DNA of 64,000 nt, taken from positions 124,001-188,000 of the forward strand of contig JAHHHY010000010.1 in NCBI GenBank assembly GCA_019359125.1, written 5' to 3'. This document shows, piece by piece, positions 15,263 to 34,966 of this stretch (within the stretch, counting starts at the first letter, position 1; the number at the start of each line of letters is the position of its first letter). The notes under the pieces were generated by a model. The model ran no database searches. It was not told the DNA's origin and saw only the letters and a list, made by a program, of their open reading frames with translations. The translations under genes and the position numbers were made by a program. This stretch comes from Pleurocapsa minor GSE-CHR-MK 17-07R (GTDB taxonomy: Bacteria; Chloroflexota; Anaerolineae; Aggregatilineales; Phototrophicaceae).

Positions 15263-16204
15263 TTATTCGCCCGTGATGCCCGTCATCTCCACCGATTCCA
15301 CGAACCAGTGCTGAAGTACAAAATACATCACCAGCAGCGGCAGGATGTTCAGGAACGTGCCGCTCATCTTGACCGCCTCGTTCAGGCGCTCGAAGATATT
15401 CACCGTGCCCGCCGGATACAGGTTCTCGTAGGCCTGGGCGAAGCTGGAAAGCTGCATCGGCAGCGTGGTCACGCCGCCTTCCAGAAAGATGACGGTGAGG
15501 AAGGTCTCGTTCCAGTACCATACGGTCGAGAAGATGAACGAGACGATGTAGGCCGGGATGGCCGACGGCACGGCGATCGTGAAAAAGATGCGCAGGTCGG
15601 TGGCGCCGTCCAGTCGGGCCGATTCTTCCAGCACCTTGGGCAGCGAGACGAAGGTCTGATAAAAAATCAGCACGAAGATGGCGCTGCGATAGCCCTGACC
15701 GAGCAAGGCGGGCAGGATGAGCGCCAGCGGATTGCCCAGCAGGTTGAGGTCGCGATACATCAGCATCTGCGGGATGACGGTGTTCTGCGGCGGGATGATG
15801 AAGGTGGCCAGCAGCAGCACGAAAATCAGCCGTTTGCCGCGAAACTGGTAACGCGCCAGCCCGTACCCCACCAGCGAGGTCACAAATGCCTGAATGAGCG
15901 ACGGCACCACGCTGATGAAGATCGATGCCATCAGCGTATTTGGATAGTCGAGCACCCGATAGGCGCGCTCGTAGTTGCCTGCGTAAAGCTGGGTGGGGAC
16001 CCATTGCACCATCGGGTTGAGCAGGTCAGACGGGTCTTTGATGCTGTTGATAAACATGAACAGCAGCGGCTGCAAGTAGACAAAGCCGATGGCGATCAGC
16101 AGCGCATACAGCACGATGGTGAAGGTGATGCCGCGATGCGCTCGGTTGCCAAACAGGATGCCCCGTGCGCGTTCTGCGGCAGGATGGCGAAGGATGTTCA
16201 TCAT
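15263..16204 (-). CDS. Sugar ABC transporter permease, MalG-like (CUT1)
   Basis: A 313-residue membrane protein with about six membrane segments and the EAA loop EESARLDGATDLR...VPSA. The start overlaps the previous stop (ATGATGA) and has AGGAG upstream, so it is translationally coupled to the MalF-like partner. It is the last gene of the nine-gene minus-strand run. The cognate binding protein is probably one of the two at 23144-27649. Confidence 0.87.
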   Translation of the reverse strand: MMNILRHPAAERARGILFGNRAHRGITFTIVLYALLIAIGFVYLQPLLFMFINSIKDPSDLLNPMVQWVPTQLYAGNYERAYRVLDYPNTLMASIFISVVPSLIQAFVTSLVGYGLARYQFRGKRLIFVLLLATFIIPPQNTVIPQMLMYRDLNLLGNPLALILPALLGQGYRSAIFVLIFYQTFVSLPKVLEESARLDGATDLRIFFTIAVPSAIPAYIVSFIFSTVWYWNETFLTVIFLEGGVTTLPMQLSSFAQAYENLYPAGTVNIFERLNEAVKMSGTFLNILPLLVMYFVLQHWFVESVEMTGITGE

Positions 16205-17091
16205 CGAGAGCTTCTCCTGGCCCAGCGCAGCAGGGCGAAGCAGATCACTGCCAGAATCACCACCATCACGCCGAAGTAGATGAAGGACATGGCGCTGGCA
16301 TAGCCGATGCCCCCCTGCACGTTATAGGTCTGGTCGTAGATATAGCGGATGACCTTGTTTTCAGAAAAGTGCGACAGGATGATGATGGTATAGATGGCAT
16401 TGACCACCGTCACCGTGGACAGCGACGGCAGGACAATTTTCCAGAACGTTTCCCAGCCCGATGCGCCGTCGATGGCTGCCGCGTCGTACACGCTGCGGTC
16501 GATTTTTTGCAGGCCCGCCAGATAAATCATGATCTGCACGCCGGAAAACCACAGGATCAGCACAAACGAGGTGAGCAGGTATTCTACCGGGCTGCGCAGC
16601 GCACGCGGAAGCTCCTCCAGGAACGCGATCACAGCAGGGTTATTGGCGATGCCAGGGGCCGATGCCGCACCCTGTTCGGTCAGCTCGCGGATAACAGGCC
16701 CGCTGGTGATGACGATGGGCAGGAAGAAGATGACCCGAAACAGCCCCTTGAAGCGGAACTTGAGGTTGAGAAACATGGCCACGATCATGGCGAAGATGAG
16801 CACTATCGGCACCGAGACCAGTGTTTCGACCGAGAAACCGATCAGCAGCTCGATGAAATTCGGGTCGGTGAACAGCGCGCGCGAGTAATTGGCCCATTCC
16901 ACGAAGTCCAGGTTGATGCTGGTGGCTGTCACCGACACGGTGTTCAGGCTGTAGAGAAAGGTCTGGGCCAGCGGCAGCGCCGTAAACACGCAGAAGCCAA
17001 TCACCCACAGCAGGATGAAGCCGTAGCCATACAGGCTTTCGCGGGTGGCAAGGCTGACTTCGCGGCGCGCAGGCTTACGAACCGTCGTCAT
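16201..17091 (-). CDS. Sugar ABC transporter permease, MalF-like (CUT1)
   Basis: A 296-residue membrane protein with six or so membrane segments and the EAA loop YDAAAIDGASGWE...LPSL. ATG 17091 shares bases with the TGA of the DUF5696-like gene (ATGA), and GGAG stands eight bases upstream; a GTG at 17094 is the alternative. It is the first gene of the second permease pair in this locus. Confidence 0.87.
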   Translation of the reverse strand: MTTVRKPARREVSLATRESLYGYGFILLWVIGFCVFTALPLAQTFLYSLNTVSVTATSINLDFVEWANYSRALFTDPNFIELLIGFSVETLVSVPIVLIFAMIVAMFLNLKFRFKGLFRVIFFLPIVITSGPVIRELTEQGAASAPGIANNPAVIAFLEELPRALRSPVEYLLTSFVLILWFSGVQIMIYLAGLQKIDRSVYDAAAIDGASGWETFWKIVLPSLSTVTVVNAIYTIIILSHFSENKVIRYIYDQTYNVQGGIGYASAMSFIYFGVMVVILAVICFALLRWARRSSR

Positions 17092-19265
17092 CACTCATTC
17101 TCCACAAGCAGCGCATCTTTGGCCTCAACGGTAATTCCTTCCTCCGAATACGGCGCGTCGGTGTAATTCACGATGACCTGCGCGCCGCCCGCATAGGTGG
17201 TGGCATACACGCCGCGGGCCAGCGCCTCGTGCGCCACGATCTCCTGGCCACGCACCGGGCCGAGCAGCGCATCCATCCGGGCATAGGTCTCGCGAATATG
17301 GTCGCCCCACTGCGCGAACGACGAGGTGTAAATCCAGTTCGACGGCGTGTTGATCATGTTGGCTGTCGCTTCCTGCGTGAGGAAATACGACGGGTAGATG
17401 CCGTATTCGATATGGCGCAGCAGATCCTCCTGCTGGTTGGACGAAAAATTGAGCGCGCTGCCGAAGTATGGCATGTGTCCGGCCAGCACGATGGGCAGGA
17501 AGGGCACCGGCTCGGTCGTGTAGATATAGCCGTTGTCGCCCAGCGGCATGTCGTAATAGGCGCGCGCGGCGTTCAGCAGATAGTCATTCGGGCGGTAAAT
17601 GCCCAGCAGCACGGGTGATGCAGCCAACAGCGCCTGATACGCGTCGATGCTCTGCTCACGGGTGATGGGCGAGTCCTCGCGAAAGTCGCTGTACAGCGTC
17701 CATCCGATGCCATCAAGCGCCAGACCCGCCGCAAGCTGTCCGGGTAAATCCCCCGAAAGCGCCTCGAAGCGATGTCGCAGCACGTCAAACGTGAAGTAGT
17801 TGCTGAAATAGCGCGCATAGCCCCGAAGCTGCTGGTTGGTGATCGACATCGCCAGATCGGTGCGCGCCGAATAGCCGGGCTCGCCCCACAGGGCCGCCTG
17901 CGGATCAAAGTAAAGCGACAGATTCCCGCCGTCGGCCGCGATGCGCTCGGCCAGCGCGTTCAGGTCTGCTGTGCTGCCCAGCCCACCTTCCAGCGCCAGC
18001 CAGGTCGGCGCGACGCTGGTGGCCCCAAACGGCTGCCAGCCATAGTAGATCACTTCGGTGTTTGGAAGCTGAAGCGCCGCGAGAATGTCGCTCATCTGGC
18101 TGATGGTGGTCATGGGGATGAAGCGATTCCACAGCAGCACATCCTCTTTGTCCCCGCCCAGAAATTCCAGGCGGATGGGGATTTCGGTGCTGGTCGCCGC
18201 TTCCTGGCCCAGGATGCCGCGCTCCAGCAGGTAATCGCGATAGCTGTGCGCCATGCCTACATAGCTGGCTTCGGGGCCTTTGAGGAAGCGGTAATGGATC
18301 ACCACATCGAAGGTATTCGGCTGCTGCTGCACGGTGGTGACACCCGCACCAGAGCGATTGGTGGCCTGAAAATACGGCTGATTGTAGATGAAGGCATGGT
18401 GCAGAAAGTTGAAATTGGTGATGACGTGGGCGGGATGCACATGCAGCTCGCCGTAGGATGCGCCGCTTTCAACGACCGAGATGAATGCGCTCTGTGCGTC
18501 GGTGTGGGCGATGCCGAACACGGGCATGGAGATGGGCGCGGGCTGGCTGATGAACGGATCGTAGGGCAGCTCTGAAATAATGCCCAGATCGTCACCGTAA
18601 TAGCGTCCGATGAACATGTTGTCAGCGCGGGTGGTATCGGCAAAGCGGATCACGCTGCCGGTGCCGTCGGGCATCATCATGTATCCGGGTATGCTGCCGC
18701 CCCGCACCGCGCCCATGAACGGATAGAGGTACACCCGTCCCAGCCGGAATTCCGGATTGTCCTCGCGAATGGACGCAAAAGGCACCTCGACGCGCACGCC
18801 ATCCGCCTCAAGCTGCACCAGCATGCCCACCGTGATGCCATATTCAGTGAACGTAACCGAGGCCGACACACCCCCGTCGGCCTCGGACACGGCCAGCGTG
18901 TGCTCGGCATTGGCGATCGAGACGCGCCGGTTTACGCCGCGGCTGTCCAGATATTCGATGCTCAGGCCGCTGCGCGCATACGCCTGCCACGAGTTATTGA
19001 GGTCATCGTCCTCCTGCACGTCGTCCAGCCCGGAGTGCCACAGGTAGCGAGTGCGCTGATCCAGCAGCTTGAAGGCCAGCGTGGTCTCGTCGAAGTACAG
19101 TTGGAACAGGTCGTTTTCGGCGGCCAGCGTATACGACTCCGGGATAGCTGCGTCTGGGGCATCCTGCCAGGCTGCATGACTGCCCGTCAGCGGCAGCAGC
19201 AGCCCGATGCACACGATCATCAGCCCGGTCCAGCGCAGGGCAGGGCGCGCCAGCAGCCTACACAC
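17091..19265 (-). CDS. Secreted DUF5696-like protein (candidate TIM-barrel glycoside hydrolase)
   Basis: A 724-residue protein, exported by its N-terminal hydrophobic segment ([16 protein letters not shown]). The start is GTG at 19265 with AGGAGG upstream, overlapping the previous gene by 8 bases. I recognise the DUF5696 type found beside CUT1 importers and Yip1 proteins in Firmicutes such as Paenibacillus. By eye there is an N-terminal beta-rich half (about 40-320). A barrel-like half follows (about 340-650: [36 protein letters not shown]), with a small C-terminal beta domain. Asp518 in LALDGIGW sits like a nucleophile of retaining glycosidases. Enzymatic function is inferred, not known. Confidence 0.65.
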
Positions 19266-21270
19266 GGAGACTTGCCTCCTGAATCACAGCCTGGACGAAT
19301 TCGGCCAGCTGGTTGAACAGCACGTACAGAATATAGGCCGACAGCAGCAGGATGGCTGCGGTGAACAGCGTGGTGACGATGTTGCGCACTGTCTCTGAAA
19401 GCGAGTAGTTGTGAATCTCGCGGACCATGATGATGAGCAGGATGCCGCACCACAGCACGATGAGCTGGCTCGAGAAGGTATACAGAAAGACTTCGTTCAG
19501 CGTGAGCACGTTGGAGAGCAGCATCAGCGGAAGCGCAAACAGCGCATACGGGAACAGGCTGTAGGCCGTGCCGATGATCACATGGCGCAGGCTGCCTTCG
19601 CCGTCGGTGATGGTGGCGACCAGATAATTGGCACCCACCCACAGCCCCAGCGGCAGCAGGGTATACACCACGTCCGTCTCCAGGTCGATTTCCCATGCCG
19701 CGACATACGGGCTGAAGACGAAGCCGGTCAGGTACGCCCCCAGCACGCGCACAATCACAATCCAGGCGAAGATGAGCAGGGCAAAAATCAGGCTGCCACG
19801 CTCGTTCTGCTTGATGTAGTAGAAGCTGTCGACGGGCTTGCGGATGAAGCGAAACATGAAGACCAAATCATCGACCAATCGGAATCGACGCAGCCCACGC
19901 AGGAACCCCCGCAGCGGATCAAGCCAACCATGCCGCTTCTCCAGCCGGCCGAAGATGCTCAGCCCAGCCCATGCGACGACCAGCCCGAGCAGGGCCGTGC
20001 CCAGATAGCGCTGAATGACCGCATTGCGCAGCTCCCAGAATGCTTCTGAGTAGCCCCCGCGGCTGCCCGCATAGCGGTAATACTGGAGCGCATTGTTGTA
20101 ATCGCGGTCGCTGTAATCGGCATCGGCCAGGCCGTAATAGGCCATCAGCACCAGGCCGTTGTAATCCATCACTGTTTCAAAGTATGGCCGCGCTTCCTCG
20201 TAGAAACCTTCCATATACAGCCCGACGCCATCGTGCAGCGTGCGCGCAAAATCGGTCACGCGGTAGGTGACGATGGCATTCTTGTTGCGGTCGAGCACGT
20301 ACAAATCACCGCGCACGCGCTCGATAGCGGTGGGATAGCTAAGCAGCCCCAGCCGCTGAACGCCTGTGTCCAGCCCGCTGAACACGAACAGGAGAAGGCC
20401 ATTCAGGTCATACTCGTAAATCTGACCTGCTCCGTCGATCGCGACCATCAGGCCGTCCGGGCTGACGTGGATATCGCGGAAGGTGTCTGAGCCGAATACC
20501 CAGTTCATCAGGTTATTGCCCGACACAGTGAATTTGCGGATGCTCTCGTTATCGTCTGTGCCGGCTGTGACTGTGTACACCAGTGACTGGCTGTCGACAG
20601 CGATATTGGTGGGCGAGGCTGCCTCGTTGCGGATGAACTGATCGAGCTGTTCATCGGTCAGGAAGATGCGCTGCAGGATCATCGTCAGCGACATCTGGGC
20701 CTGATTGGCGCCAAAATAGCCGATGAATTCGCCAGCAGCGTTCATCATCACCAGGCCGTTGACCGAGCCTTCGCTGACGATGTACAGATTGCCACGGGCA
20801 TCCACCGCGATCTTGCGCGGCCGAAACTGTCGGTTCTGACCGAACAGCGGCTCAGTCGGCTGGCCAAATTCGCTGACCAGCGTCCCGCTGGCATCCAGGA
20901 TGACGACCATGTTGCGGCCAGCGTCGGCGATATACAGCGTGCCTGCGTCGTCCACGAACAGGCCGGTGGGAGAATCAAGGATATCTGCGCCGTATTCGCC
21001 AACGATCTGGAACTCCTCGTCCAGCTTGAGAATCCGGCCGTTGCCGGTATCAGCCACGTACAGGAAGCCATCTGGCGCGAAAAACATATCTTCCGGGCCA
21101 TTCACCGGCAGGTCGATCTGATCGAGCGGCGTGTAGGCATCCTGCGTGGGCACAAAATATGAACCAGGCCCCAGCGTCCAGGTGGTGTATGGCGAATCGG
21201 ACTGCGCCGATGCATCGACAGCCAGCGTTGCCAGCGCGATCACCAGCAGGGCAAGCGCGGCGCGTCTCAT
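19258..21270 (-). CDS. NHL-repeat propeller, TPR-like and Yip1-domain membrane protein
   Basis: A 670-residue protein starting at ATG 21270, which overlaps the previous stop (ATGA) and opens a signal peptide ([18 protein letters not shown]). Residues about 35-370 carry NHL-type propeller repeats ([47 protein letters not shown]). About 390-460 look like tetratricopeptide helices. From about 480 there are one membrane helix, a basic linker and then about five membrane segments of the Yip1 type. It would anchor an extracytoplasmic sensor or docking propeller in the membrane beside the importer. The role is unknown. Confidence 0.75.
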
Positions 21271-22178
21271 TTCAGCCCCGAGCGCGACATTGTGCTCATG
21301 ACCTGGCGCTGCAGGACGATGAAAATAATCAGGTTGGGCAGAAACATGATGAGCGCGGCTGCGGCAGCGATGCCCTGGCCGGCGACAGCATTGGCCGTGG
21401 TAGTCGCGGATGTCAGCGTGGTCAGGTAAAAGGCGAGCGTGCGCTGGCTTTCGGTGTTGATGTAGAGCGTGGAAATCTCGGCATTGTTCCACGCCGCCTG
21501 AAAGGTGAGGATGGCGATGGTGGCGATGGCGGGTTTGATCATCGGCATGATGATGCGCCAGTACAGCCGCCAGTCGCTGGCGCCATCAATCTGCGCCGCC
21601 TCGATCACCTCATCCGGGATGCCATCGACAAATTGCTTGAGCAGAAACACGCCAACGGGCAGGGCCAGCACGGGCAGGATGTGCACCAGAAAACTGTCGA
21701 GCAGATTCAGATTCTCGATGACCAGAAAGCGCGGAATCGTGACGGCCACTGGCACGAACATGAGCGCCACGGTATTGATGGCAAACAGCGCCTGCTTCAG
21801 CCGGAAACGCTTCTTGGAGAGCGCATAAGCCGCAGTGCTGGACACCAGAATCGAGGCCGCCACGGTGATGGCCGTAATCATGATGCTGTTGAACAGATAA
21901 CGCGTGATCGGCACGCCGGAGGTGGACAAGCGCGAGAACAGATCGCGGAAGTTATCCAGCGTTGGGTTCGTCACCAGCAGACGCGGCGGAAAGGCAAACA
22001 GCTCGTCGGGCGGTTTGAAGGCGCTGGAGATGATATACACGACCGGCAGCAGCATCAGCACCGACAGCGGGATCAGCACGACATAAAACTTCAGCTGGCT
22101 GACATGAAATCCCTGTGGGTTCATGCCCCGGTTGCGCAGCCCGGTATAGCGGTTCCACCATGGGCGTCTGGCGATCAT
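21267..22178 (-). CDS. Sugar ABC transporter permease, MalG-like (CUT1)
   Basis: A 303-residue membrane protein with about six membrane segments and the EAA loop [13 protein letters not shown]...MPMI. ATG 22178 is chosen over a TTG at 22199 because GAGG lies at suitable distance and the overlap with the upstream gene disappears. It is the partner of the MalF-like permease ending four bases upstream, and its own stop overlaps the start of the NHL/Yip1 gene. Confidence 0.87.
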
Positions 22179-22182
22179 AAGG

Positions 22183-23154
22183 TTACGCCTCGCTTCCAAA
22201 CAGGCGATTGGCCAGGCGGGAGAAAAACAACACCATCACCAGCAGCACCACCGAGACAGCAGCCGCATAACCCATCTCGTAGCGCAGAAAGCCGTAGTCC
22301 TCGATGTGATTGACGATCAGCTGGCCGGCATACTGCGGCGTCGGGTTGCTGCCCGACAGCGTGACGCCGATGGCCCCGGCCTGGAACGTGCCCACGATCG
22401 CCATGACCGCGCCGAACAGCATCTGAGGTCGCATGGATGGTATGGTGATGAGGAAAATTTCCTGCACGCGGCTGTTCAGCCCGTCGATGGCCGCGGCCTC
22501 ATACAGATCCGGGCTGACCTCCAGGATGCCGGCCAGCATGGCCAGAAAGCCGATGCCCATGCTGCTCCACAGCGTCACCACGATCATGATGGTCATGAGA
22601 TACTGCGGCGATTGCAGCCACTGAATCGGCTCGCGCAGCAGCCCTATCGCCATCAGGAAGCTGTTCAGATAGCCTGTCTGGTCGCCGCTGAAGAGCGTTT
22701 TCCACACCACGGCCATCGCCACGGCAGCAGTCATTGAGGGCGAATACAGGATAATCGCGAAGATCGCGCGCGGCAGGCGCGGCAGCTGCGCCAGCATCCA
22801 TGCCAGCAGGAACGCCAGGACATAGCCGCCCGGCCCGACGATCACGGCGAACTGGATGGTATTGGGCAGCACGTTCCGCATGAACGTGGCATCCTGCGTC
22901 AGCAGTGCGATGTAATTGTCCAGCCCGACGAAGCGCGGCTGCTGGATGGCATCGAAGAAGGTGAACGAAAGCAGGATGGCCGTGGCCACCGGGATGACGA
23001 TGAACACGATGAAAAGCAGGCCGTAAGGCGCCAGAAAGAGATACGCGCTCCCCTCACGGTTTGCCCAACCCTGAAAGACTGACCGGGCCTGCGCCCGCCA
23101 GTCGTGCTTCGTCCCCTCGCGGGGTTGTCCCTCGGCCGTGGTTCTAATCTGCAT
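22183..23154 (-). CDS. Sugar ABC transporter permease, MalF-like (CUT1)
   Basis: A 323-residue membrane protein with a polar N-terminal tail ([11 protein letters not shown]) and six membrane segments. The EAA loop is [14 protein letters not shown]...IPSM. The ATG at 23154 overlaps the end of the giant binding-protein gene by 11 bases, so these two are translationally coupled. That coupling makes the giant binding protein its most likely partner. Confidence 0.87.
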
Positions 23155-26119
23155 TTTCCATCCATGAAAGCACGGTGTCGATGGTGGGCACGCGATATTC
23201 GCGCACAGGCACACCATCCACCAGATAGCCGAATTCCTCCATCTTGCGCGTAATCTCGCGGTTGATGGTGGTCACGGAGCGGTCGATGGCCACGCGCGGG
23301 CTGGCGCCCTGAAACACGATTCGATTCCAGATATTGCTGATTTCACGCTCCTGCATATAGCTGCCGGGCAGGCGCGCAGGCTCTTGCAGCCATCCCCACT
23401 GCGCCAGGATGACGTCACGGTGTTCATCGGGGATATCGAGGCTGGCAAATGCGTCCAGATTGGCCGAAAACCAGAGGTATTCGCGGCCATAGTTGCTGAT
23501 GAGTTCGTCCTGAAAGCGCGACTGCGTCTCGGTGGACAGCCACCACTGCATGAATGCCCAGCCCTGGTCTGGCATATTGGTATTGCTGAACATGATGCTG
23601 GTCTGCGCCGAGCCGGTGGCAAAGCGGTTCTCGCTGCCGTCGGCCAGCACCGTTGCCGGATACAGATCGATGCCCCAGCGCCCGGTCAGCTCGGCAGCGG
23701 CGGTCGTGAGGCGCATATACGTCTCGCTGTTGCTGATGCCCACGGGGAGGGTGCCATTGCGGAACGACTGATAGAAGCTGGCCGTGTCGAGCGGCATGTC
23801 ATAAATGGTGAAGATGTCTGCCATGAACTCGATGCCCGCCACCGCCTCGTTGCTCTCCAGGCCTGTCGAGAAGCCGTCGGCGCTGTAAAGCTGCGCTCCC
23901 TGGTTAAACAGGAACGGCGTGGTGACCAGATAGCCGCGCTGCCCGGTGCCGGAAGACAGCGGCGTCTGGTAGTTCATGCCAAAGCGCTGTAATTCAGGCA
24001 GAATCTCCAGGACTTCGTCCCAGGTGTCGGGGACGGCCAGGTTCAGCGAATCCATGATGTCCTCGCGGTAAAAAGTCACCCAGAAGTCCTGCGTTTCGGG
24101 CAGCGCATAGACCGAATCGTTGATGATGTAGCCCAGCAGCGAACCGGGCGAGAAATGGCGAATGAACGTGTCAAAGTCGGGAAAGGTGCGCAGGTCGTAC
24201 AGCGCATTGCGGATGGCCAGCTCATAGGGGCGGTCGGTGCTGACGCCCAGCGCCACATCCGGCTGATTGCCCGCGGCGTTGGCCAGAATCAGCTTGGACT
24301 CGTCGGGCATGATGGAGAAGCGGACCGGGATGCCTGTCTGCGGTGTAAACGAGGTGTCGGCCAGAAGCTGGAGCAGGTCGACATACTGGCGTGGCCTGTT
24401 CACCCACACTTCCAGTTCACCTGCGTCGGCAGACAGCGAGCGGTACGGGTCGGGCTGGAACGACTGCACGAAGCGGCGCACATCTTCCCAGATGGCCGTG
24501 GTGAACGGCACAGACGGCGTCTGCGGGACGATATCCGGTGAATGCACGATGATGCGATCGAGCGCCAGCGGCTGATTTTGCAGCAGCGGCAGCAGCGAGG
24601 CAAGCTGCTGGGCGGCCGAGCCTGTGCCCTCCGAGAAGCGGTTCATCGAAATTGGGATGTTGTTGGGGTCAGCGGCCAGGAAGCGCAGATTGTCCACGGC
24701 GATGCGATAGGTCAGGATTTCCGGCGATGCGGCGCTGGGGTCGATGGCCAGCAGCGTCGCCTGATCGTCGATCAGATTCTGGGCCATCGCATTCAGGCGC
24801 GCTTCAATGTCGGGGATGTAATCGCCAATTTCCCACTCGCGGAAGGGATCCTGCTGATTGCCTGTCAGGCGGTTGATTTCCAGCGCCAGCGCGTTGATAT
24901 CTTCCAGCGCGGCCTGAATTGTCTCGATGGCGGGCGTATAGGGCGCGCTGTTGGCCTCGATGCCGATGATATTCGCGCCGCGCCGCAGAAACACCATGTA
25001 AGGCGTTTCGCCGCCCAGATGCATATCCACCCAGTCGGTCGAATACGGGAAAGGTACGGCGTTGAATTCAGCGAAGGGCACGACGCCATTCACGGTGATG
25101 CGGCGGAACACGGTGAAATTACTGCGCACGTTTTGCATGGCGCGCAGCGTGATGGCATACAGCCCGTCCTGCGGCACCACGACTTCGTAATACACGCCGG
25201 TGCCGCTGCGAATCCAGCCTTCGCCACCCATCGTGTTCATCAGTAGGCAGTAGGTGTCGTATGGCGTCACGGTCAGGCTGCGGCTGCTGGCCGGGCGCAC
25301 AGCCGTGTCATTTTTGTAGGCGGGAAGCTCGGCCTCCAGCGACAGCTGGAATCCGGCGGCCGCGGATGCCGTCTGCGCCGCCAGATAGTCTTGATAGGCG
25401 GGGTAGGGCGTGAACGGGACCAGATAAAATGTCCCCATATACAGCGCGCCTTCGTTCAGCGTGAACTCGAATGCGTGCTCTCCGGCGGACAGTGCTACCC
25501 GGATTGGATAGGGCAGGCTGACATCGACATCGCGGGCCTGCACGGTCGTCCAGCGCACGGCGCGCTGCTGCGGAATGAGCGCGTCGTTGCCATAACGGTC
25601 GCGTGGGAATGTGTCGCTCGCACCCTCGTATAACACCGGAAACGCGATCTGTCGCATGTCGGCGCTGGGGAAACCCCCATCGACGCGTAGTTGTCCTTCC
25701 GGCGCATCAGCTTCGGCCGGGATCAATGCGTCAAAGGCGAACGTGTATTCGCCCTGTGCGGGCGCAGTAACCTCAATGGTGAAGCTGTCGCCCGCCTGCA
25801 TCACGACGCTGGGCGCGGCATACTGGCTTGCTATAGCGTCATCGGCCAGCGGCAGGCCCAGCGCATCGGCGGTGATGGCGATGGCGCCGGTGTCGCGCAT
25901 GTCGGTCAGGCCGCCAGCGTCACCATCGCCGCTGGCTGTCATATTCGCCGCTGTTGCGCTGTTTGCGGCTGTGGTAATCAGGGTTTGCGGGGCGCAGTTT
26001 GCGGCAGACGCGCTTTCCTGGCTGACCTGCGCGGGCGCGCAGGTCGTCAGCGCCAGCAGGAGCAGCGTGCACAGAAAGGGGGTGGACAGCCTGTCAACGT
26101 GCTTCGTTTTTAAGCGCAT
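23144..26119 (-). CDS. Giant extracellular solute-binding protein with jelly-roll-like N-terminal region
   Basis: A 991-residue probable lipoprotein: basic start, hydrophobic stretch, and Cys27 in ALTTC as candidate anchor (the -1 Thr is atypical). Residues about 90-240 and 265-415 look like two beta-sandwich, carbohydrate-binding-type domains ([39 protein letters not shown]). An alpha-helical spacer follows (about 415-490). The family 1 binding-protein fold occupies about 560-960 ([40 protein letters not shown]). Usual family 1 proteins are 400-450 residues, so over 500 residues are extra. A GTG at 26125 is an alternative start. It may capture polymeric or long ligands before transfer to the permeases. 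Confidence 0.75.
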
Positions 26120-26296: not shown

Positions 26297-27649
26297 TTAG
26301 CCTGCCGTTTCGGCGCGGGCATCGTCCAGAATATTGTTGGCGAATTCCTCAAGCTGTGCCGAGTAGTCCTCGAACTTGTAAGCGCCGGTCATGATGTTGT
26401 CGAAGATAAAGCCGAGGCTGACATCCGGGTTTTCGCCGATGTCGATGCCGGGACGGCCTTCCCAGCGGGCATTGATATAGCCGGGCACGATCTTCGCCAG
26501 CGATTCAACCAGGCTGTTGTCCAGGTTCTCAAGCGCCATGCGCAGGCCGGGTAGATCACCCACGAAGGACATGTACAGGTCGATGCTCTCCGGGCTGATG
26601 GTGACGGGCATACGGCTGGGCACCACGCCAGCGGCCGAGGCCAGCTCGGCTTCCATGGCGTAGCCTTCGCTGGAGAAGCTCATCCAGCGGGCGAAGTCAT
26701 AGGCTGCTGCGCTGTCTGCTGCCGTGCTGGAGACGACCAGAATGTCGGCCACGATGGCCTGATTGCCGCCCGGTACGCCCAGGAAGTCCCAGTTAAACGT
26801 GGCGTTCTGCACGTAAGAAGGAACGGCCCAGCCGCCTTCCCACACAGCGCCCGATTCCTGATTGACGAACAGCTCCCACGGGCCCTGCGAGGTAAATGTC
26901 GCGCGCTGTGCTTCGCTCAGTCCCTGCCAGGTATTCGGCAGCATCTCGATGGCCTGTTCCACGCCTGCGCGGAAGGCATCCGAGTTGTAGTTCATATGCG
27001 TGCCGTCATAGCTGAACCAGCCGAGATTGCTGTCCTGCGAGCTGGCATACCAGCCGAGGATCGGGAAGAACTCGTGCAGGCCCAGCACGCCCTGCTGCAC
27101 ATTGGTCAGCTCGCTGGCGGCTGCGAAGAAGTCCTCTGCCGAAGTGCCATATGTCGGCGCGTCCAGGTTGGCGGCCTCAAACAGGTCCTGATTGATGAAA
27201 TAGCCCATGATGAACTGTGCGCTGGGAAGCCCAAGCACGGCTCCGTCATAGGTCACGGCATCGCGCAGCACCTGCGGCACTGCCTGCCAGTCGGCATCCT
27301 CAGCGACCAGCGCGGTCAGGTCTGCCGCCCAGCCGTTTTCCACATAGTAGGGCGTGTTATTGGCCATAAACACATCGGGCAGCGCGCCGCGTGCGGCCAG
27401 ATTGGTCAGCTTTTCTTCCCAGCCGCCATCGCCAGACATATCGACGAATTCAATGGTCACATCGGGGTTGGCTTCCATATAGGCGGCCACAAGCTGGCGG
27501 GCGAGGTTGTTTTCTTCTTCGGTGCCCACGTTCCAGTTGGCATAGCGGATGGTGACGCCCTGGGCGCTGGCGGGAATGCTCATGAACAGCGCCAGCATGG
27601 CTGCCAGCATCAAAAGGGTTGTGCGGAAGGGTCTGTTAAAAGCTTTCAT
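26297..27649 (-). CDS. Extracellular solute-binding protein, family 1
   Basis: A 450-residue secreted protein with a signal peptide (cleavage after ASAQ) and no lipobox. The mature part shows family 1 features: [50 protein letters not shown], and EGGWAVPSY. The ATG at 27649 (MKAFNRP) gives a normal signal peptide; an upstream start would add six residues. It lies between the GH94 gene and the giant binding-protein gene. With two permease pairs downstream, this operon may encode two importers, or one importer with two receptors. Confidence 0.87.
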
Positions 27650-27703
27650 CTCGTCATCTCTTCTCATAAAACCATGCCGATAGGGAAGTGCCGTGCTGAT
27701 GAT

Positions 27704-27785: not shown

Positions 27786-30167
27786 TTACCCCATCACGAT
27801 ATGGATCTTGTGTGTCCTGCCGTCTGCAAATACGGGTAGCAGTGCACCCTCGTGCGGCCTGTCATCCACCGTCACCGAGCGGATGCCGCTGCTTACGCCG
27901 TTCGGGTTGTCGACCTCAATCTGGTAAGTGGCGCCCCGGAATGCCCGCGTGATGCGGAAGCCGGGCCAGTCCGCCGGAATGGCGGGGTCCACCAGCAGTC
28001 CATCTTCCTGCGGCCGGATGCCCAGGATCCAGTGTGTTGCCACGCGATGCAGCCACTGTGCCGAGCCGGTGTACCAGGTCCAGCCGCCGCGACCATAATA
28101 CTCGGACAGCGGCCCGTCGATGTTGCCCGGCGTGACATACGGCTCCGCCTTGTAGGTGTCGATATCGGCGCTGCGGTTTGGCGGGCAGATGCGCTGATAA
28201 GCCTCCCACGCACGTTCCGGCTGGCCCGCTTTCGCATACGCCCACACGGACCAGGTGGCCGCGTGGGTATACACGCCGCCGTTCTCGCGCAGGCCGGGCG
28301 CATAGCGCGTCACATAGCCGACATCCGGGCGCGGGTGCGTGAACGCAGGATAGTTGAGCAGCGTGCCGTAGTCTTTGAGCAGATGCTCGGTCACGGCGGC
28401 CATCGCCGTTTGCGCCCGATCGTCATCCGCTGCGCCGCTCATCACCGCCCAGATATTGGGCATCAGGAAAATTTTGCCTTCCTCGTTTTGATGCGAGCCC
28501 AGCAGCAGGCCGTCGTCGGTGGTCGCCTGCAGGTACCACGCGCCGTCCCAGCCGTGCTGGTTGAGGGCTGTCTTCAGGCTGTCGCGCACGACGAGGCAGC
28601 GTTCAGCGAAGCGGTCATCGCCACGCCGCTGCGCCAGCCCGGCGAAGTCGCCCAGAATCATGTACAGGAATTCGGCCACCCAGAAGCTTTCGCCCCGAAG
28701 CAGCGTGCCCACGGCGCTGAGGCCATCATTCCAGTCGTGATCGCCCATCAGCGGCACGCCGCGTGGCGAAAAGCGCGAAAACGAGCGTTCGATGGCGCGC
28801 TTGCAATGGTCATACAGCGGCTCTGCCGGCCCGTTGAGGTAGGGCGCCGGTTCATCGAGGATGGCGTAGTCGGCCGTCTCCAGCAGATAGGCATTCAGGA
28901 TGAAGGGCAGCCAGAGCAGATCATCGGAACAGTTCGTGCGCGGTCCGCCGCCGCGAATGGAAAACCACCAGTGCAGCACATCGCCCTCGATAAACTGATG
29001 CTCGGCGTGCATGAGCAATTGTTTACGCGCATAGGCCGGGTCGCCCACCAGGAAAATCTGGCTGTCCTGAAGCTGGTCGCGGAAGCCGTACCCGGCCGAG
29101 ACCTGATACAGCGCCGATTTTCCCCACAGCCTGCACGAGATGGCCTGATATTTCAGCCAGTAGTTGGTCATCAGGTTCAGCGCGTCGTCGGGCGTCTCCA
29201 CGCGCTCACCATCCACGAAGCGCGACCAGAATACATGCACCGCTTGCAGCGCATCTGCGCTCGCTTGCGGGCTGGTGAATCGGGCGATCAGCGCATGGAC
29301 GTCTTCTGTGCCGTTTTCTGCCGCGCCCAGCGTGAACACAATTGTCCGCGACGCGCCTGGCGCCAGCGTGACGCCCACCTGAAGCGCCGCGATCGCGTCA
29401 CCGAAGCGACCGGTGCGGCCTGCCAGCGCAGGCAGCGTCATCGCGGCGGGGCGATCATCGTTGTTATACATCCCGATGAAGGTTTCTTTATCGCAGTCGA
29501 ACGATTTGAGCGGTTCGCTGACGGCCATAAACGCCGTGTACGGCCAGTCGACGTTGTTGTGTCGCCCCTTGTCGTCGGGGAAGCCCCACAGGCATTTGCG
29601 CGCAAATACGGCCTGCGACGGCACGTCGGCGCTGGTTTCGATGAACAGCTTGTGAAACTCGCGGTGTTCGTCTGGCGAGAAGCCGAGCAGCCATTCGGCG
29701 TATGAGGTCACATCCAGCTCGCGCGTCTCGCTGCTGTGGTTGGTCAGCACGAGCTGGAAGACTTCCACCGGCGCGTCCGCGGCCACAAACACGGTCAGCA
29801 CGCTTTCGATGTCTTCTACCTGATGCGTGAAGCGCGAATAGCCGATGCCATGCGCCACTTCGTAGCGCTGGTACGGGCGCATGACCGGCTTGTAAGTCGC
29901 TGACCAGGTTGCGTTACGCTTCAGGTCGCGGATGTAGAAATACTTGCCCCAGTTATCTTTGATGAGGTCCTGAAACGAGCGCGTGATGCGGTTCTGACCC
30001 GCATTGCCGCGCCAGCTGTAGCCGGATCCTGTCTGCGACACCATCAGGCTGTAATCACCATTGCTGATGATATTGCCCCACGGGCGCGGCGTGAACGGGG
30101 TCGTGATGATATATTCACGCCCGTCCGCGGCAAAATGACCGTACTTGCTCTCGAAGATGTTTTTCAT
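27786..30167 (-). CDS. GH94-type glycoside phosphorylase
   Basis: A 793-residue cytoplasmic protein without signal peptide. The N-terminal beta-sandwich has the GH94 pattern YGHFAADGREYIITTP...PWGN and SGYSWRGNAGQNRITR. The (alpha/alpha)6 barrel has SAGYGFRDQLQD and HDWNDGLSA, where the Asp of WND (about residue 477) is the general acid in cellobiose phosphorylases. It would cleave a beta-glucoside with phosphate to give a sugar 1-phosphate. Length fits cellobiose, chitobiose or cellobionate phosphorylases; known 1,2-beta-oligoglucan phosphorylases are longer. The specificity is therefore open. It is the first gene of the importer operon, behind a LacI-type operator. Confidence 0.82.
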   Translation of the reverse strand: MKNIFESKYGHFAADGREYIITTPFTPRPWGNIISNGDYSLMVSQTGSGYSWRGNAGQNRITRSFQDLIKDNWGKYFYIRDLKRNATWSATYKPVMRPYQRYEVAHGIGYSRFTHQVEDIESVLTVFVAADAPVEVFQLVLTNHSSETRELDVTSYAEWLLGFSPDEHREFHKLFIETSADVPSQAVFARKCLWGFPDDKGRHNNVDWPYTAFMAVSEPLKSFDCDKETFIGMYNNDDRPAAMTLPALAGRTGRFGDAIAALQVGVTLAPGASRTIVFTLGAAENGTEDVHALIARFTSPQASADALQAVHVFWSRFVDGERVETPDDALNLMTNYWLKYQAISCRLWGKSALYQVSAGYGFRDQLQDSQIFLVGDPAYARKQLLMHAEHQFIEGDVLHWWFSIRGGGPRTNCSDDLLWLPFILNAYLLETADYAILDEPAPYLNGPAEPLYDHCKRAIERSFSRFSPRGVPLMGDHDWNDGLSAVGTLLRGESFWVAEFLYMILGDFAGLAQRRGDDRFAERCLVVRDSLKTALNQHGWDGAWYLQATTDDGLLLGSHQNEEGKIFLMPNIWAVMSGAADDDRAQTAMAAVTEHLLKDYGTLLNYPAFTHPRPDVGYVTRYAPGLRENGGVYTHAATWSVWAYAKAGQPERAWEAYQRICPPNRSADIDTYKAEPYVTPGNIDGPLSEYYGRGGWTWYTGSAQWLHRVATHWILGIRPQEDGLLVDPAIPADWPGFRITRAFRGATYQIEVDNPNGVSSGIRSVTVDDRPHEGALLPVFADGRTHKIHIVMG

Positions 30168-30248: not shown

Positions 30249-30366
30249 TCTCTTTGAATGTAACATGCTTTTTTACACTGTCAACAAATTTAAGATTTTT
30301 TCAGAGAAAGCGCACAAAATGACGCAGGGTTTGCTGACGAAAGTCGTTGACGACTAAGGCCCCGTG

Positions 30367-31356
30367 ATGACCACCATCCGCGATGTAGCCAGACATGCCG
30401 GCGTGAGCGTGACCACCGCATCGTATGCGCTCAATGAGACAGGGACGATCGGCGATGCCACGCGCAAGCGTGTGCTGGCGGCCGCCGCAGAGCTGAACTA
30501 TCACCCGAATGCGTTTGCGCGCCACCTGAAATACCGCAAGACGCAGACCATCGGCGTGTTCATCGCCCGGTTCGGCGGGGCATTCTACGAAGAAGTGCTG
30601 GAAGGCATCCACAGCGTCATCATGGAGACCGACTACGAGCTGCTGGTGTGCCCGGAAAGCCGCACCGACCGCCATATCCTGCTGCACAGGCAGGTGGACG
30701 GCGCGATTGTGTTTGACACCAAGATCGACAGTCGGTCGCTGCTGAATCTGGCCTCGCAGCACTTTCCCATTGTGGTGCTCGACCGCGATTTGCGCAGTGA
30801 TTTCATCCTGCCGTTGCTGCTGGACAATGCGCAGGGCGTGCGCGAGGCTTTCGTGCATCTGTACGGGCAGGGCTTTCGGCGTTTGGCCTATGTCGCTGGT
30901 GCTGCCGATTCGTTCGACAATGCCGAGCGCATGGCCACGTTTATGGCCGAGGCCAGCGCACATGGGCTGAGTGTGCCAGTGTATCAGGGGAATTTTACCG
31001 AGGTGTCCGGCTATGACATCGCGGCCCACATCCTGCAATCCGACGAGCGCCCGGAGGCCGTCTTCTGCGCCAACGATCAGATGGCGATTGGCTTCCTGCG
31101 CGCCATGCGCGAGCGCGGCCTGCACGCGCCGGAGGACATCGCCGTGGTCGGCTTTGACGATATTCCGCTGACGCGCTACATGCAGCCGACCCTGAGCACG
31201 ATCGGCGCATCGCGCTATGACTGGGGCCGGTCCGCCGTGCGCCAGCTCATCGACTTTTTGGAAGACGAGACGCCGTTTCGCCCGCACTGGATTCCGACGC
31301 GTCTGCTGGCGCGCCAGTCGTCTTCGCTGCCCGGCACGTCTGCTGATTCAGGCTGA
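30367..31356 (+). CDS. LacI family transcriptional regulator of the glycan locus
   Basis: A 329-residue protein. The helix-turn-helix reads TTIRDVARHAGVSVTTASYAL, and the hinge YHPNAFARHLKYRKT precedes the effector-binding domain (IGVFIARFG, AVFCANDQMAIGFLRA, VVGFDDIPLTRYM). ATG 30367 has AAGG seven bases upstream; a GTG at 30364 is the alternative. It is divergent from the GH94 operon and followed by the glucoamylase-like and GH35 genes on its own strand. It is therefore the likely repressor of both arms through the palindrome at 30231. The effector is unknown. Confidence 0.87.
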   Translation: MTTIRDVARHAGVSVTTASYALNETGTIGDATRKRVLAAAAELNYHPNAFARHLKYRKTQTIGVFIARFGGAFYEEVLEGIHSVIMETDYELLVCPESRTDRHILLHRQVDGAIVFDTKIDSRSLLNLASQHFPIVVLDRDLRSDFILPLLLDNAQGVREAFVHLYGQGFRRLAYVAGAADSFDNAERMATFMAEASAHGLSVPVYQGNFTEVSGYDIAAHILQSDERPEAVFCANDQMAIGFLRAMRERGLHAPEDIAVVGFDDIPLTRYMQPTLSTIGASRYDWGRSAVRQLIDFLEDETPFRPHWIPTRLLARQSSSLPGTSADSG

Positions 31357-31367
31357 AAGGGGCCTTG

Positions 31368-32597
31368 ATGGATACACATGAAATCCTGCTGCGCGAGATC
31401 GCGGGATCGGTCGACTTTTTCCTTGACTGTACCAATCTCGATACGGCCAGCGCGGGCTACGGCCTGACAGTCGACTCGACCAAAAACGCGGTCTTCGCGT
31501 CTATTGCGGCGACCGGCTTCGCCCTCACGGCCTGGGTGATCGCTGCCGAGCGCGGGCTGCTGCCGCATGCCCAGGCGCGCGACATCGTGCGCGGCACGCT
31601 GCACACGCTGCTGCATAACGTCCCGCATCATCGCGGCTTTTTCGCCCATTTCCTGCATATGCGCACGGCCCAGCGTTGGGGGAAGTGCGAGTATTCCACC
31701 ATCGATACTGCGTTGTGCCTGAACGGGGTCATCACGGCGGCAGCGTACTTCGATGATGCGGCTATCGGCGAGATGGCGTCTGCACTGCTGGCGCGGATGG
31801 ACTGGAATTTTCTGGTCTTCGAGGATGAAGGAAACGCGCTGTTTCACATGGCCTATAACCCCGACCGGGGCGGCGATTATGTGCATGGCGATCCCGGTTT
31901 CATCAGCCGCTGGGATATGGCCGCCGAACAGAAGATGATGTACTTGCAGGCGGCCGGGCACCTCGACCCGGCGCTGGCCCGACGGCTGTATGCCGGGTTC
32001 AGGCGCGACCGTGCGACTTATGCGGGCTACGAGGTCATCGTCAATCCTGGTGGCGCGCTGTTCGCCTATCAGTTCAGCGAGGCGTGGCTGGACTGCGCCG
32101 CTTATCTTGACCCGGATGGCATCGACTGGTTTGAGAATACGCGCCGTGCCGTGCTGGCCAACCGCACCTACTGCATCGCCAGGGCGCCTGACTTCGCCAC
32201 CTTTCATGCCAACAGCTGGGGCATCAGCGCTGGTGACAGCCCGACAGGGTACGAGGTGTCGGGTGCGCTGCCGGCGCTGGAAACGCCGAGGCTGAGCGGC
32301 ACGGTCTCGATCTATGGTGCGCTGTCATCATTGCCTTTCGCGCCCGAACAGGCGCTGGCCATGATCGACCACCTGGTTCAGCACCATCCGCAGACATGGG
32401 GCAGGTATGGTTTTTATGACGCCTATAACCTGGCCGTGCAGCCTGCCTGGTACAGCAGCGCGCTGTATGGCATCGACAAGGGCTGTTCGCTGCTGATGAT
32501 CGAGAATTATCTCAGCGGTCTGGTGTGGCGCACATACACCGAAAGTGCCACTGTACAGCGCGCACTGGGTATTCTGGGTTTCAGTCGCCGGGGCTAG
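31368..32597 (+). CDS. Cytoplasmic glucoamylase-family / GH144-like glycosidase
   Basis: A 409-residue protein lacking a signal peptide, with the same (alpha/alpha)6 family as the secreted enzyme at 11213-13054. Shared segments are CEYSTIDTALC, RWDMAAEQKMM, NSWGISAGDSPTGYEVSG, YGFYDAYN and YGIDKGCSLLMIENY. The segment that reads DGTIAPHAS in the secreted paralogue is SGTVSIYGA here, so specificity or activity may differ. ATG 31368 follows AAAGGGG, 11 bases after the regulator's stop. It would act on imported oligosaccharides alongside the GH94 phosphorylase. The linkage it cleaves is not known. Confidence 0.75.
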   Translation: MDTHEILLREIAGSVDFFLDCTNLDTASAGYGLTVDSTKNAVFASIAATGFALTAWVIAAERGLLPHAQARDIVRGTLHTLLHNVPHHRGFFAHFLHMRTAQRWGKCEYSTIDTALCLNGVITAAAYFDDAAIGEMASALLARMDWNFLVFEDEGNALFHMAYNPDRGGDYVHGDPGFISRWDMAAEQKMMYLQAAGHLDPALARRLYAGFRRDRATYAGYEVIVNPGGALFAYQFSEAWLDCAAYLDPDGIDWFENTRRAVLANRTYCIARAPDFATFHANSWGISAGDSPTGYEVSGALPALETPRLSGTVSIYGALSSLPFAPEQALAMIDHLVQHHPQTWGRYGFYDAYNLAVQPAWYSSALYGIDKGCSLLMIENYLSGLVWRTYTESATVQRALGILGFSRRG

Positions 32598-32647: not shown

Positions 32648-34966
32648 ATGGGGACGTTTGTCGCAAAAGACGGCCAGTTCTGGCTGAACGGACAGCCGGT
32701 ATTCATTCATGCCGGTGAGTTTCATTACTTTCGTACCCCGGTGGCGCAGTGGGAACACAGCCTGAACCTGCTTCGGCAGGCGGGACTCAACACGCTGGCC
32801 GCTTATATTCCGTGGCTGTGGCATCAGCCGCAGGTCGGCGTGACCGATCTGGATGGCCACACGCACCCGCTGCGCGATCTGGCAGGTTTCCTCGATCTGG
32901 CGGCGGATATGGGCTTCTGGCTGATTCCCCGTCCGGGCCCCTACATCATGGCCGAGACGATTAACGAAGGCGTGCCACCCTGGGTGTTCAGCCAGCATCC
33001 GGATGCAGCGTTCATCGACCAGACGGGTACCAGACAGAATATCGTCAGCTATCTGCATCCTGACTTCCTGCGCTGCGTGGATAGCTGGTATGAGGCTGTG
33101 TTCGGCGTGCTGGCGCCCCGTCAGGTCACGCGCGGCGGCAAAATCCTGATGGTGCAGCTCGATAACGAGATGGGCATGATCCACTGGGTGCGCAATATCG
33201 TGGACACCAACCCGGATACGCTGGCGCGCTTTGCGGCCTGGCTTCAGGCGACGTATGGGGCAGGGCTGGCGGCGCGCTATCCGGCTGGCGATCTGGCGGG
33301 CTTTCTGCGGGCGCAAATCAGCACGCCGACAGGTGAGTATGGCGCGCGCATGCTGGAGGACTACCGCCACTTTTTCCGGGGATATCTGCGCGAATATACA
33401 GGACAATTATGGTCGCGTGCCCGGGCGCATGGCCTGGAAGTGCCGCCCGTTATCAATGTTCACGGCTTCACCAACACCATGGGCGGGCGGTCGTTCCCGA
33501 TCGGCCTGTCCCAGCTGACCGACGCGATGGCCCTCGACGGCATGATCAGCGCCACTGACGTGTATCCCATTTACATCGGGGAGGGCAACTACACCCAGAT
33601 CGTGCTGCTCAACGCCATGACGCGGGCACTGCACAACCCGCAGCAGCCGTTGTTCTCGATCGAGTTTCAGTCGGGCGGCTATCAGGATCATGGCAGCGCG
33701 CAGTCTTCCATGTATGACCTGCACAGCCGCCTCAGCATTGCCTGCGGCATGCGCGCCATCAACCACTACCTGTTCTTCGCAGGCGAGAATGACCCGGTGC
33801 TCAGCCCGGTCAAACGGCACGACTGGGGCCCGCCTGTGCGCGTTGATGGCACGGTGCGGCGGCATTATCACCGCTACGGCAAGCTGTCGGCCACGCTGAC
33901 GGCGTATGGGACTGCGCTGGTGACAGCCCTGCCGAAAACCGTCGCCAGCATCGGCTTCCAGATCGACGATTTCATGACCGAAGTGGGCAATGTGGCCACG
34001 CGCCCGGCGGACGATGTGCTGGTGCACCAGCGTAACGACATTCTGTTCGATTTCATCGGGCGCGGGCTGTCGCTGACGCATCGGCCGTATGACGCGCTGG
34101 AGCTGGCCCGTCAGCCGCTGGATGCTGCGCACACGCCGGTGCTGTTCACCATGCTGGACAAACGCTGCGACGCTTCTGTTCAGCACAAGCTGGTCGAATA
34201 TGTGCGCGCGGGCGGGCGACTGGTCATCGCCGGGCGCATGCCCGATGCCGAGCGGAACGGGGCGCCCTGTGCTGTGTTACGGGATGCCGTCGGCGTGCAG
34301 ATTGCCCGAACCGACCCGCCATTCACGCAGGCGCATCTTCGCGTCTTCGATCAGACGGATGTTCCCGTGTCGTTTCTGGAGACGTACCGGGGCGATTTTG
34401 ACGAGGTCTTGGCCTCGACCGCAAACGGCGAAACGGTCGGCTTCCTCCAGCGCGTCGGGGCAGGGCAGGTGCTGATGTTTGGCGCGGCTATGACCGCCGA
34501 TGTGCCGGAAGACCTGCATATCTTCGATCAGATGGCGGCACGCATCGGCTGCCAGCCGCTGTTTGTCATGGACGAGTGGGCCGATGTGCACCTGTCTGAG
34601 GGCGACGAGGGCAGCTTCCTGTTCGTCAATAATTATCAGGACGACCCGATTGCATCGGCCATCTCGAAAGAGGGCACGGCGCTGCTGGGTGGGCATCCGG
34701 TGGCGCTGCCCGCGCGCCGCGGCGTCATACTGCCGCTGGACTGGCAGGTCAGGCCGGGCGTGCTGGTGCATTACTGCACCGCGGAGATCAACGGGGTGGT
34801 TGAAGACGGCGCTGATCTCACGCTGAAAACTGACCCGTTGGCCTGTTATGCCGAAATCAGCCTGACCGGGTATCGCCCGGTGGATGCGCTCGGCGCACAC
34901 GAGGTGGGGGCAGGGCGCTTTAGGATGCATGTGCAGGACGGCATCATCGCGCTGAAGCGGGTTTAG
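32648..34966 (+). CDS. GH35-type beta-galactosidase-like glycosidase
   Basis: A 772-residue protein without signal peptide. The N-terminal third is a clear GH35 TIM barrel: FIHAGEFHYFRTP, GLNTLAAYIPWLWHQP, IPRPGPYIMAE. Glu174 in QLDNEMG is the likely acid/base and Glu339 in FSIEFQSGG the likely nucleophile. Their 165-residue distance is longer than the usual 100 or so, leaving a GH42-like reading possible. The C-terminal part includes a glutaminase-like alpha/beta domain and a beta domain. ATG 32648 follows GGAG. It is third in the LacI-led plus-strand group, so it probably trims side chains or related beta-galactosides. Confidence 0.75.
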   Translation: MGTFVAKDGQFWLNGQPVFIHAGEFHYFRTPVAQWEHSLNLLRQAGLNTLAAYIPWLWHQPQVGVTDLDGHTHPLRDLAGFLDLAADMGFWLIPRPGPYIMAETINEGVPPWVFSQHPDAAFIDQTGTRQNIVSYLHPDFLRCVDSWYEAVFGVLAPRQVTRGGKILMVQLDNEMGMIHWVRNIVDTNPDTLARFAAWLQATYGAGLAARYPAGDLAGFLRAQISTPTGEYGARMLEDYRHFFRGYLREYTGQLWSRARAHGLEVPPVINVHGFTNTMGGRSFPIGLSQLTDAMALDGMISATDVYPIYIGEGNYTQIVLLNAMTRALHNPQQPLFSIEFQSGGYQDHGSAQSSMYDLHSRLSIACGMRAINHYLFFAGENDPVLSPVKRHDWGPPVRVDGTVRRHYHRYGKLSATLTAYGTALVTALPKTVASIGFQIDDFMTEVGNVATRPADDVLVHQRNDILFDFIGRGLSLTHRPYDALELARQPLDAAHTPVLFTMLDKRCDASVQHKLVEYVRAGGRLVIAGRMPDAERNGAPCAVLRDAVGVQIARTDPPFTQAHLRVFDQTDVPVSFLETYRGDFDEVLASTANGETVGFLQRVGAGQVLMFGAAMTADVPEDLHIFDQMAARIGCQPLFVMDEWADVHLSEGDEGSFLFVNNYQDDPIASAISKEGTALLGGHPVALPARRGVILPLDWQVRPGVLVHYCTAEINGVVEDGADLTLKTDPLACYAEISLTGYRPVDALGAHEVGAGRFRMHVQDGIIALKRV

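Follow-up and report, generated by a model that had tools for sequence, protein, structure and literature searches.

A large solute-binding protein and its domains

The subject of this analysis is a gene for a large solute-binding protein (SBP), hereafter BIG, in a window of 64,000 nucleotides of Pleurocapsa minor GSE-CHR-MK 17-07R (Chloroflexota; contig JAHHHY010000010.1, positions 124,001 to 188,000 of the forward strand). The BIG open reading frame (ORF) occupies 23144..26119 on the minus strand, with ATG at 26119 and the stop codon at 23144-23146, and encodes 991 residues without an internal stop; the assignment was based on the ORF, Pfam and the alignment of relatives. Plus-strand ORFs overlying the gene were considered and rejected. 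Pfam analysis (E up to 0.1) identified SBP_bac_1 as the sole domain (residues 609-866; 50.8 bits versus a curated cut-off of 26), and no SusD-type domain was among the matches. The BIG frame was the longest among the 37 SBP_bac_1 matches of its genome (996, followed by 642, 565 and 526), in agreement with a preliminary description of this DNA, which had proposed a binding protein of twice the usual size. By its profile, its two-lobed fold and the adjacent MalF/MalG-type permeases, BIG belongs to the SBPs of CUT1-type ATP-binding cassette (ABC) importers.

Full-length or nearly full-length relatives of BIG were found in 9 of 40 kin genomes, aligning with the window protein at 64-67% identity; a tenth kin genome (G004) contained the last 76 residues of a BIG relative only. 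Mean pairwise identity among the kin was 19% for residues 30-77, 58% for 78-240, 71% for 241-400, 73% for 401-555 and 76% for 556-991. In genome contigs, the N-terminal region is encoded at 29 loci, which together with its conservation and its presence in the nine kin genomes indicates that the long N-terminus is not a chance feature.

The N-terminal half comprises two β-sandwiches and a helical region. Module 1, a first sandwich resembling carbohydrate-binding modules (CBMs) of families CBM35 and CBM6 (residues 78-238; 25406..25888, minus strand), was delimited by AlphaFold2 confidence and VIA-align. Module 2, a second, CBM35-like sandwich (residues about 258-395; 24935..25348, minus strand), was delimited by profile matches to PDB chains and by hhalign to module 1. 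The helical spacer (residues about 396-515, or 392-515; 24575..24934, minus strand), followed by a strand at 518-526, was taken from AlphaFold2 models. Because the model of full-length BIG (30 alignment rows) had a predicted local distance difference test (pLDDT) score of 62.6, with modest confidence in the SBP part, and its fold search was filled with SBP matches, residues 78-532 were modeled alone (29 rows). The mean pLDDT was then 81, and two β-sandwiches followed by a helical region were predicted. Scores in module 1 were mostly near 90, dropping to about 70 at residues 148-187, and values below 50 were confined to residues 264-306 at the start of module 2.

Comparison of module 1 with solved structures by VIA-align gave the CBM35 structure 2w47 as the best match (Z 14.8, root-mean-square deviation 2.0, 122 residues). 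CBM35 modules and enzymes with related modules ranked first. The best 50 matches ranged from Z 14.8 down to 11.7, and many were named CBM35 or CBM6; since the best 50 matches of the 78-532 model cover mostly module 1, they say nothing about whether module 2 or the helices have other folds. A profile of the N-terminal half gave seven matches to PDB sequences (E up to 10). Four fell on module 2 (5x7g, E 8e-4; 2vzp, 0.022; 2w47, 0.066; 2w1w, 0.068) and three on the helices, the latter all designed coiled-coil proteins. The entries 2vzp, 2w47 and 2w1w are titled CBM35 in PDB, and the matched part of 5x7g is presumably a CBM35. Alignment of the two modules by hhalign (probability 93.7, E 1.8e-7) indicates, at the level of sequence profiles, that they are homologous to each other. 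The fold model, VIA-align, the PDB profile matches and hhalign thus agree with the initial proposal of two sandwiches of carbohydrate-binding type and a helical spacer ahead of the SBP, and the N-terminal half was predicted neither as disordered nor as a non-binding fold.

Module 1 is predicted to have the same β-sandwich as CBM35/CBM6 modules (2w47, 2w1w, 4qb2, 2vzp and 2cdp), and module 2 is alike by profile only. In contrast to those modules, both lie below Pfam CBM_35 recognition and are fused to an SBP instead of an enzyme. As modeled, BIG combines a putative polymer-binding module type with an ABC importer's receptor. Among 25 divergent BIG members, eight positions (D174, D197, E264, N295, W302, Q329, R339 and E351) were kept in 24 or more. 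Mean identity of module 1 in distant members to the window protein was 18% (22 sequences).

Four genomes (G348, G434, G468 and G395) carry the N-terminal half on a frame lacking the SBP domain, with 561, 535, 538 and 456 residues, respectively, the 456-residue frame being without its start. These frames stop where the SBP domain would begin, and residues 78 to about 555 were therefore regarded as an independent unit. The SBP-less halves are encoded at L113:9127-10809, L115:5154-6758, L116:980-2593 and L117:10127-11494 and adjoin ROK-family genes (3/4) and pseudouridine-synthase genes (3/4). A relative of module 2 that is encoded on its own (L114:9437-10588, 384 residues) passed the Pfam CBM_35 cut-off (32.3 versus 28 bits). 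It lies in a further locus for a sugar importer (L114:9437-16772), where genes for two ABC ATPases and two permeases are accompanied by free-standing proteins resembling CBMs, one of them over that cut-off.

The SBP domain (SBP_bac_1; residues 563-991; 23147..24433, minus strand) was defined by Pfam, PDB sequence search and fold search. Its best PDB sequence match was Lin1841, the β-1,2-glucooligosaccharide SBP of Listeria innocua (5ysb, 5ysd, 5yse and 5ysf; E 4.9e-10, next match 1.8e-7), and Lin1841 (5ysb/5ysd/5ysf) was thus the nearest solved relative by sequence. It also ranked first, though tied, by fold (Z 20.9). Solved SBPs aligned with Z of about 19-21 over residues 563-967, and the start of the binding-protein fold near residue 560, as first described, is borne out by this alignment. 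Lin1841 has the usual size of an SBP, its structures comprising 386-397 residues, and, unlike BIG, lacks an N-terminal CBM-like half. In the parts of PMC8861115 that were available, the carbohydrate-binding subunit of the L. innocua β-1,2-glucan cluster is reported to bind β-1,2-glucooligosaccharides; on account of the PDB titles, we equate this subunit with Lin1841.

Residues 1-29 (26033..26119, minus strand) form a hydrophobic signal or anchor segment with a possible atypical lipobox, LTTC27, as judged by hydropathy and a lipobox tally. The lipobox pattern applied has Ala, Gly or Ser before the Cys. Cys27, at which a lipid anchor had been suspected, is preceded by Thr, and LTTC27 fits a relaxed pattern only. 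With Ala, Gly or Ser required, 17 of 32 close BIG relatives fitted, some at positions 41-49, past a normal signal peptide, and 14 of 32 fitted no pattern (rows were de-duplicated by identical sequence only, so a gene listed with different starts may be counted twice; L058 and L059 were excluded). On these sequences a lipid anchor is doubtful; signal or membrane anchoring of BIG is likely.

Gene neighborhood and candidate β-1,2-glucan enzymes

The genes on the minus strand of the window are ordered as ordinary SBP, BIG, permease 1, permease 2, NHL-TPR-YIP1 protein, DUF5696 protein, permease 3 and permease 4. Among solved structures, the ordinary SBP (26297..27667; Pfam, PDB sequence search) is closely related to 22hh (E 1.4e-182) and to four sister entries of 22hh; the ligand of 22hh could bear on the substrate assignment. 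Permease 1 (MalF type, 22183..23217; ORF list, Pfam, hydropathy) is given as the listed ORF, its true start probably being further downstream, and permease 2 (MalG type, 21267..22199; Pfam, hydropathy) likewise as listed. Permeases 3 (16201..17094; Pfam, homology search) and 4 (15263..16204) end the series. A plus-strand frame at 15251-16279 was rejected as a gene, being antisense of permease 4.

The NHL propeller-TPR-YIP1 membrane protein (19258..21492 for the listed ORF, whose true start probably lies further downstream; minus strand; Pfam, hydropathy) has membrane segments predicted by hydropathy in its C-terminal part. The NHL propeller, TPR and YIP1 parts form one protein in the window; in Butyrivibrio, the YIP1 part is encoded as a separate gene. 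The DUF5696 protein (17091..19265, minus strand; Pfam, hydropathy, profile search) has an N-terminal hydrophobic segment. A DUF5696 profile built from 12 sequences matched the α-N-acetylgalactosaminidase 5wzq (E 3.5e-15), whose family we take to be GH129 (GH, glycoside hydrolase), and the 3,6-anhydro-D-galactosidase 5opq (E 7e-12). DUF5696 thus appears, by profile comparison, to be a remote relative of these enzymes. At the aligned positions that distinguish 5wzn from 5wzq, neither the histidines nor the aspartate of 5wzn (which we read as the wild-type chain) are kept in the DUF5696 profile, and DUF5696 is for this reason regarded as a candidate enzyme only. The family was named nowhere in the open-licence PubMed Central literature searched.

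Genes for putative β-1,2-glucan enzymes flank this series on both sides. A GH94 phosphorylase (27786..30167, minus strand; Pfam, PDB sequence comparison) lies upstream of the ordinary SBP. The listed ORF of a GH144-type β-1,2-glucanase homologue (PF10091; 11213..13372, minus strand; Pfam, hydropathy) contains a hydrophobic segment close to its N-terminus, and a second GH144-type homologue (PF10091; Pfam, PDB search) is encoded at 31365..32597 on the plus strand. Both matched solved SGLs, with XCC2207 as the top match of each; XCC2207 is named as a GH144 β-1,2-glucanase in the available part of PMC12102758. A GH35 gene (32648..34966, plus strand; Pfam, PDB search) has the β-1,2-glucosyltransferase IaSGT (7vkw, 7vkx) as its best solved relatives. 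A LacI-type regulator (Pfam) is encoded at 30364..31356 on the plus strand. Minus-strand ORFs at 30301-31287 and 31215-32207 had no Pfam match and are probably antisense of the plus-strand LacI and GH144-type genes; matches of relatives to these two ORFs in the locus comparison are to be read as antisense.

The enzyme set is the same as in the β-1,2-glucan cluster of Ignavibacterium album (including IALB_1177, 1179, 1185 and 1187), for which the portions of PMC8861115 at hand list two GH144 genes, a GH94 homologous to the C-terminus of the synthase, a GH35 and an SBP homologous to that of L. innocua. A possible TonB-dependent transporter accompanies the SBP homologue in that account, and a large SBP, DUF5696 and an NHL-TPR-YIP1 protein go unmentioned in those portions.

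The association of BIG with GH144-type genes was examined in 301 Chloroflexota genomes. PF10091 had matches in 51 genomes; in 12 of these the match was strong (over 100 bits). Strong matches were present in all nine genomes with close-type BIG (N-terminal profile match with E under 1e-150) and in none of the 16 with distant-type BIG; three of the latter (G193, G249 and G269) had weak matches. Many of the weaker matches belong to ORFs some 2,900 residues long, which are probably cyclic glucan synthases. In 10 genomes picked for close-type BIG, 19 of 19 PF10091 genes lay within about 13 kb of BIG. GH94 was upstream of BIG in 21 of the 24 close loci with room for it. Genome G158, judged to be Chloroflexus aurantiacus J-10-fl, has two PF10091 genes about 9-11 kb from BIG. 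The endo-β-1,2-glucanase Chy400_4164 of C. aurantiacus, which according to the available part of PMC12102758 is in use as a reagent enzyme, may be one of these two.

A conserved cassette in Chloroflexota and Bacillota

Permease 1 followed BIG at all 52 loci compared (28/28 close Chloroflexota loci, 11/11 distant-type Chloroflexota loci and 13/13 Bacillota loci). DUF5696 was found downstream of BIG in 24 of the 28 close loci, the sequences of the remaining four ending first, and in 10 of the 11 distant-type loci (from 16 genomes), where one contig ends. The Bacillota loci, all 13 of which encode the large SBP in fused form, came from L059 (Ruminococcaceae), a Butyrivibrio plasmid, a Paenibacillus plasmid and ten genomes of the phylum of L059; 12 had DUF5696 downstream, and L059 had none within the stretch examined. 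The L059 genome as a whole encodes seven large SBPs and seven DUF5696 genes. Sixteen of 149 genomes of this phylum matched the N-terminal profile, 12 of them with ORFs at least about 950 residues long. The layout of BIG, about which the preliminary description had asked, is common to other large binding proteins, an entire family of which is encoded in Chloroflexota and Bacillota.

The N-terminal profile of BIG matched 25 of the 301 Chloroflexota genomes. DUF5696 was detected in 40 of these 301 at E up to 0.001, in 30 over the cut-off and in 27 strongly (E under 1e-50), and all 25 genomes with the BIG N-terminus were among the 27 (Fisher P value, 1.6e-34, descriptive only since the genomes are related). 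In three of the 25 (G213, G313 and G314), BIG and DUF5696 are on separate contigs, so adjacency is not shown for these.

The enzymes beside the cassette differ among Bacillota and include GH31 twice (L059), GH43 (Butyrivibrio, L118 and L127), GH38 (L123) and, in L120, a protein resembling arabinofuranosidases. A general assignment of large SBPs to β-1,2-glucan was rejected, as several Bacillota members lie beside these other glycosidases and strong PF10091 matches are absent from all 16 Chloroflexota genomes with distant-type BIG. Next to five distant-type Chloroflexota cassettes, a scan of nine ORFs gave no glycosidase, and none was annotated in the Paenibacillus stretch; both results count against glycosidases being always at hand.

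Among the matches listed from the open-licence PubMed Central literature, no account of the cassette or of CBM-SBP fusions was found; the cassette is widespread and apparently unstudied. It is possible, although we put this forward tentatively, that it represents an undescribed glycan-uptake machine of Chloroflexota and Bacillota, in which two linked ABC importers, a polymer-capturing SBP bearing CBMs, a surface GH129-like DUF5696 protein and the membrane NHL-propeller/TPR/YIP1 protein would form one complex, taking the role of SusCD in Bacteroidota and being re-aimed at different polysaccharides by swapping glycosidase genes. If the function proposed for BIG below is correct, the substrates of many orphan sugar importers of Gram-positive bacteria and Chloroflexota would become predictable, and a role would be indicated for DUF5696 and the NHL-TPR-YIP1 protein. 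BIG labels the conserved cassette, and its Chloroflexus orthologues offer a tractable case with a likely substrate.

Proposed function and competing explanations

We consider it probable that BIG is a membrane-tethered CUT1-type SBP whose sugar-binding domain is preceded by two fused CBM35-like modules and a helical spacer, and that it acts in a β-1,2-glucan uptake locus. The substrate is suggested by the closeness of the SBP domain to Lin1841, the two GH144-type genes, the similarity of the GH35 to IaSGT and the presence of the same set in I. album. In the proposed mechanism, β-1,2-glucan would be cleaved outside the membrane by an exported GH144-type enzyme, the glucan chain may be bound and held near the importer by the two N-terminal modules, and the SBP domain would take β-1,2-glucooligosaccharides and dock to permeases 1 and 2. 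Inside the cell, the GH94, the second GH144-type enzyme and the GH35 would complete the degradation. Judged from gene order, on which the pairing of BIG with permeases 1 and 2 is likewise based, the ordinary SBP would probably serve permeases 3 and 4, giving two linked importers in the locus; ordinary SBP genes lie directly after these two permeases in Butyrivibrio.

Surface glycan-binding proteins and SusD of Bacteroidota hold polysaccharide at the cell surface beside the importer. The role proposed for BIG is alike, and by this analogy the early suggestion that it holds a polymer near the transporter is plausible, with β-1,2-glucan as the candidate polymer. Unlike in SusD systems, BIG has no SusD-type Pfam match and ABC permeases are encoded next door.

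Several observations weigh against this assignment. Regarding the modules, neither matched Pfam CBM_35 even at E up to 5, which is why they are called CBM35-like rather than CBM35; the best 50 fold matches of module 1 include a few domains of laminins or Cry toxins, which share this broad fold, so that the fold by itself is no proof of sugar binding; and the start of module 2, although conserved among close relatives, is poorly modeled. Regarding the substrate, other sugar SBPs were within 1-2 Z units of Lin1841 and nearly tied with it, GH94 was missing upstream in three of the 24 close loci with room, and strong PF10091 matches were also present in G095 (which has DUF5696), G171 and G251, where BIG was not found. 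Regarding location and pairing, the hydropathy scan also flagged a segment in the GH94 and in the second GH144-type protein, leaving their position inside or outside the cell unsettled, and the ordinary SBP gene lies upstream of BIG in the window and its close relatives, an order that does not itself favor pairing with permeases 3 and 4.

The N-terminal half could instead be a structural adaptor, whose sandwiches and helices bind proteins of the cassette (the NHL-TPR-YIP1 or DUF5696 protein) and not sugar. The co-occurrence of the N-terminal module with strong DUF5696 in 25 of 25 Chloroflexota genomes is consistent with this explanation, as are the module layout, unchanged at loci with quite different enzymes (GH31, GH43 and GH38), and the helical part, which is long and conserved among close relatives. 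However, both sandwiches resemble modules known for sugar binding, and the four genomes with an SBP-less frame have the module beside ROK or pseudouridine-synthase genes and not in the cassette. We regard an adaptor as rather unlikely.

It is improbable that the locus imports β-1,2-glucan while the extra half merely lifts the SBP domain off the membrane without specific binding. A spacer of this kind would agree with the variable linker at residues 30-77, the helical region and the weak conservation of module 1 in distant members, but the eight positions kept among the divergent members exceed the needs of a passive spacer. There is similarly little chance that the substrate is another glucan or glycoside and the β-1,2 enzymes are coincidental neighbors, as might be argued from the other glycosidases beside the cassette elsewhere, the 37 SBP_bac_1 matches of the genome and the other sugar genes nearby, since the two GH144-type and the GH35 genes, the SBP domain and possibly also the GH94 gene indicate the same linkage and the GH144 link is confined to the clade of close-type BIG.

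Beyond the β-1,2-glucan genes, the window contains other sugar genes nearby, and an ORF of 573 residues with a match to thrombospondin type 3 repeats lies near the locus at 9369-11090 on the plus strand.

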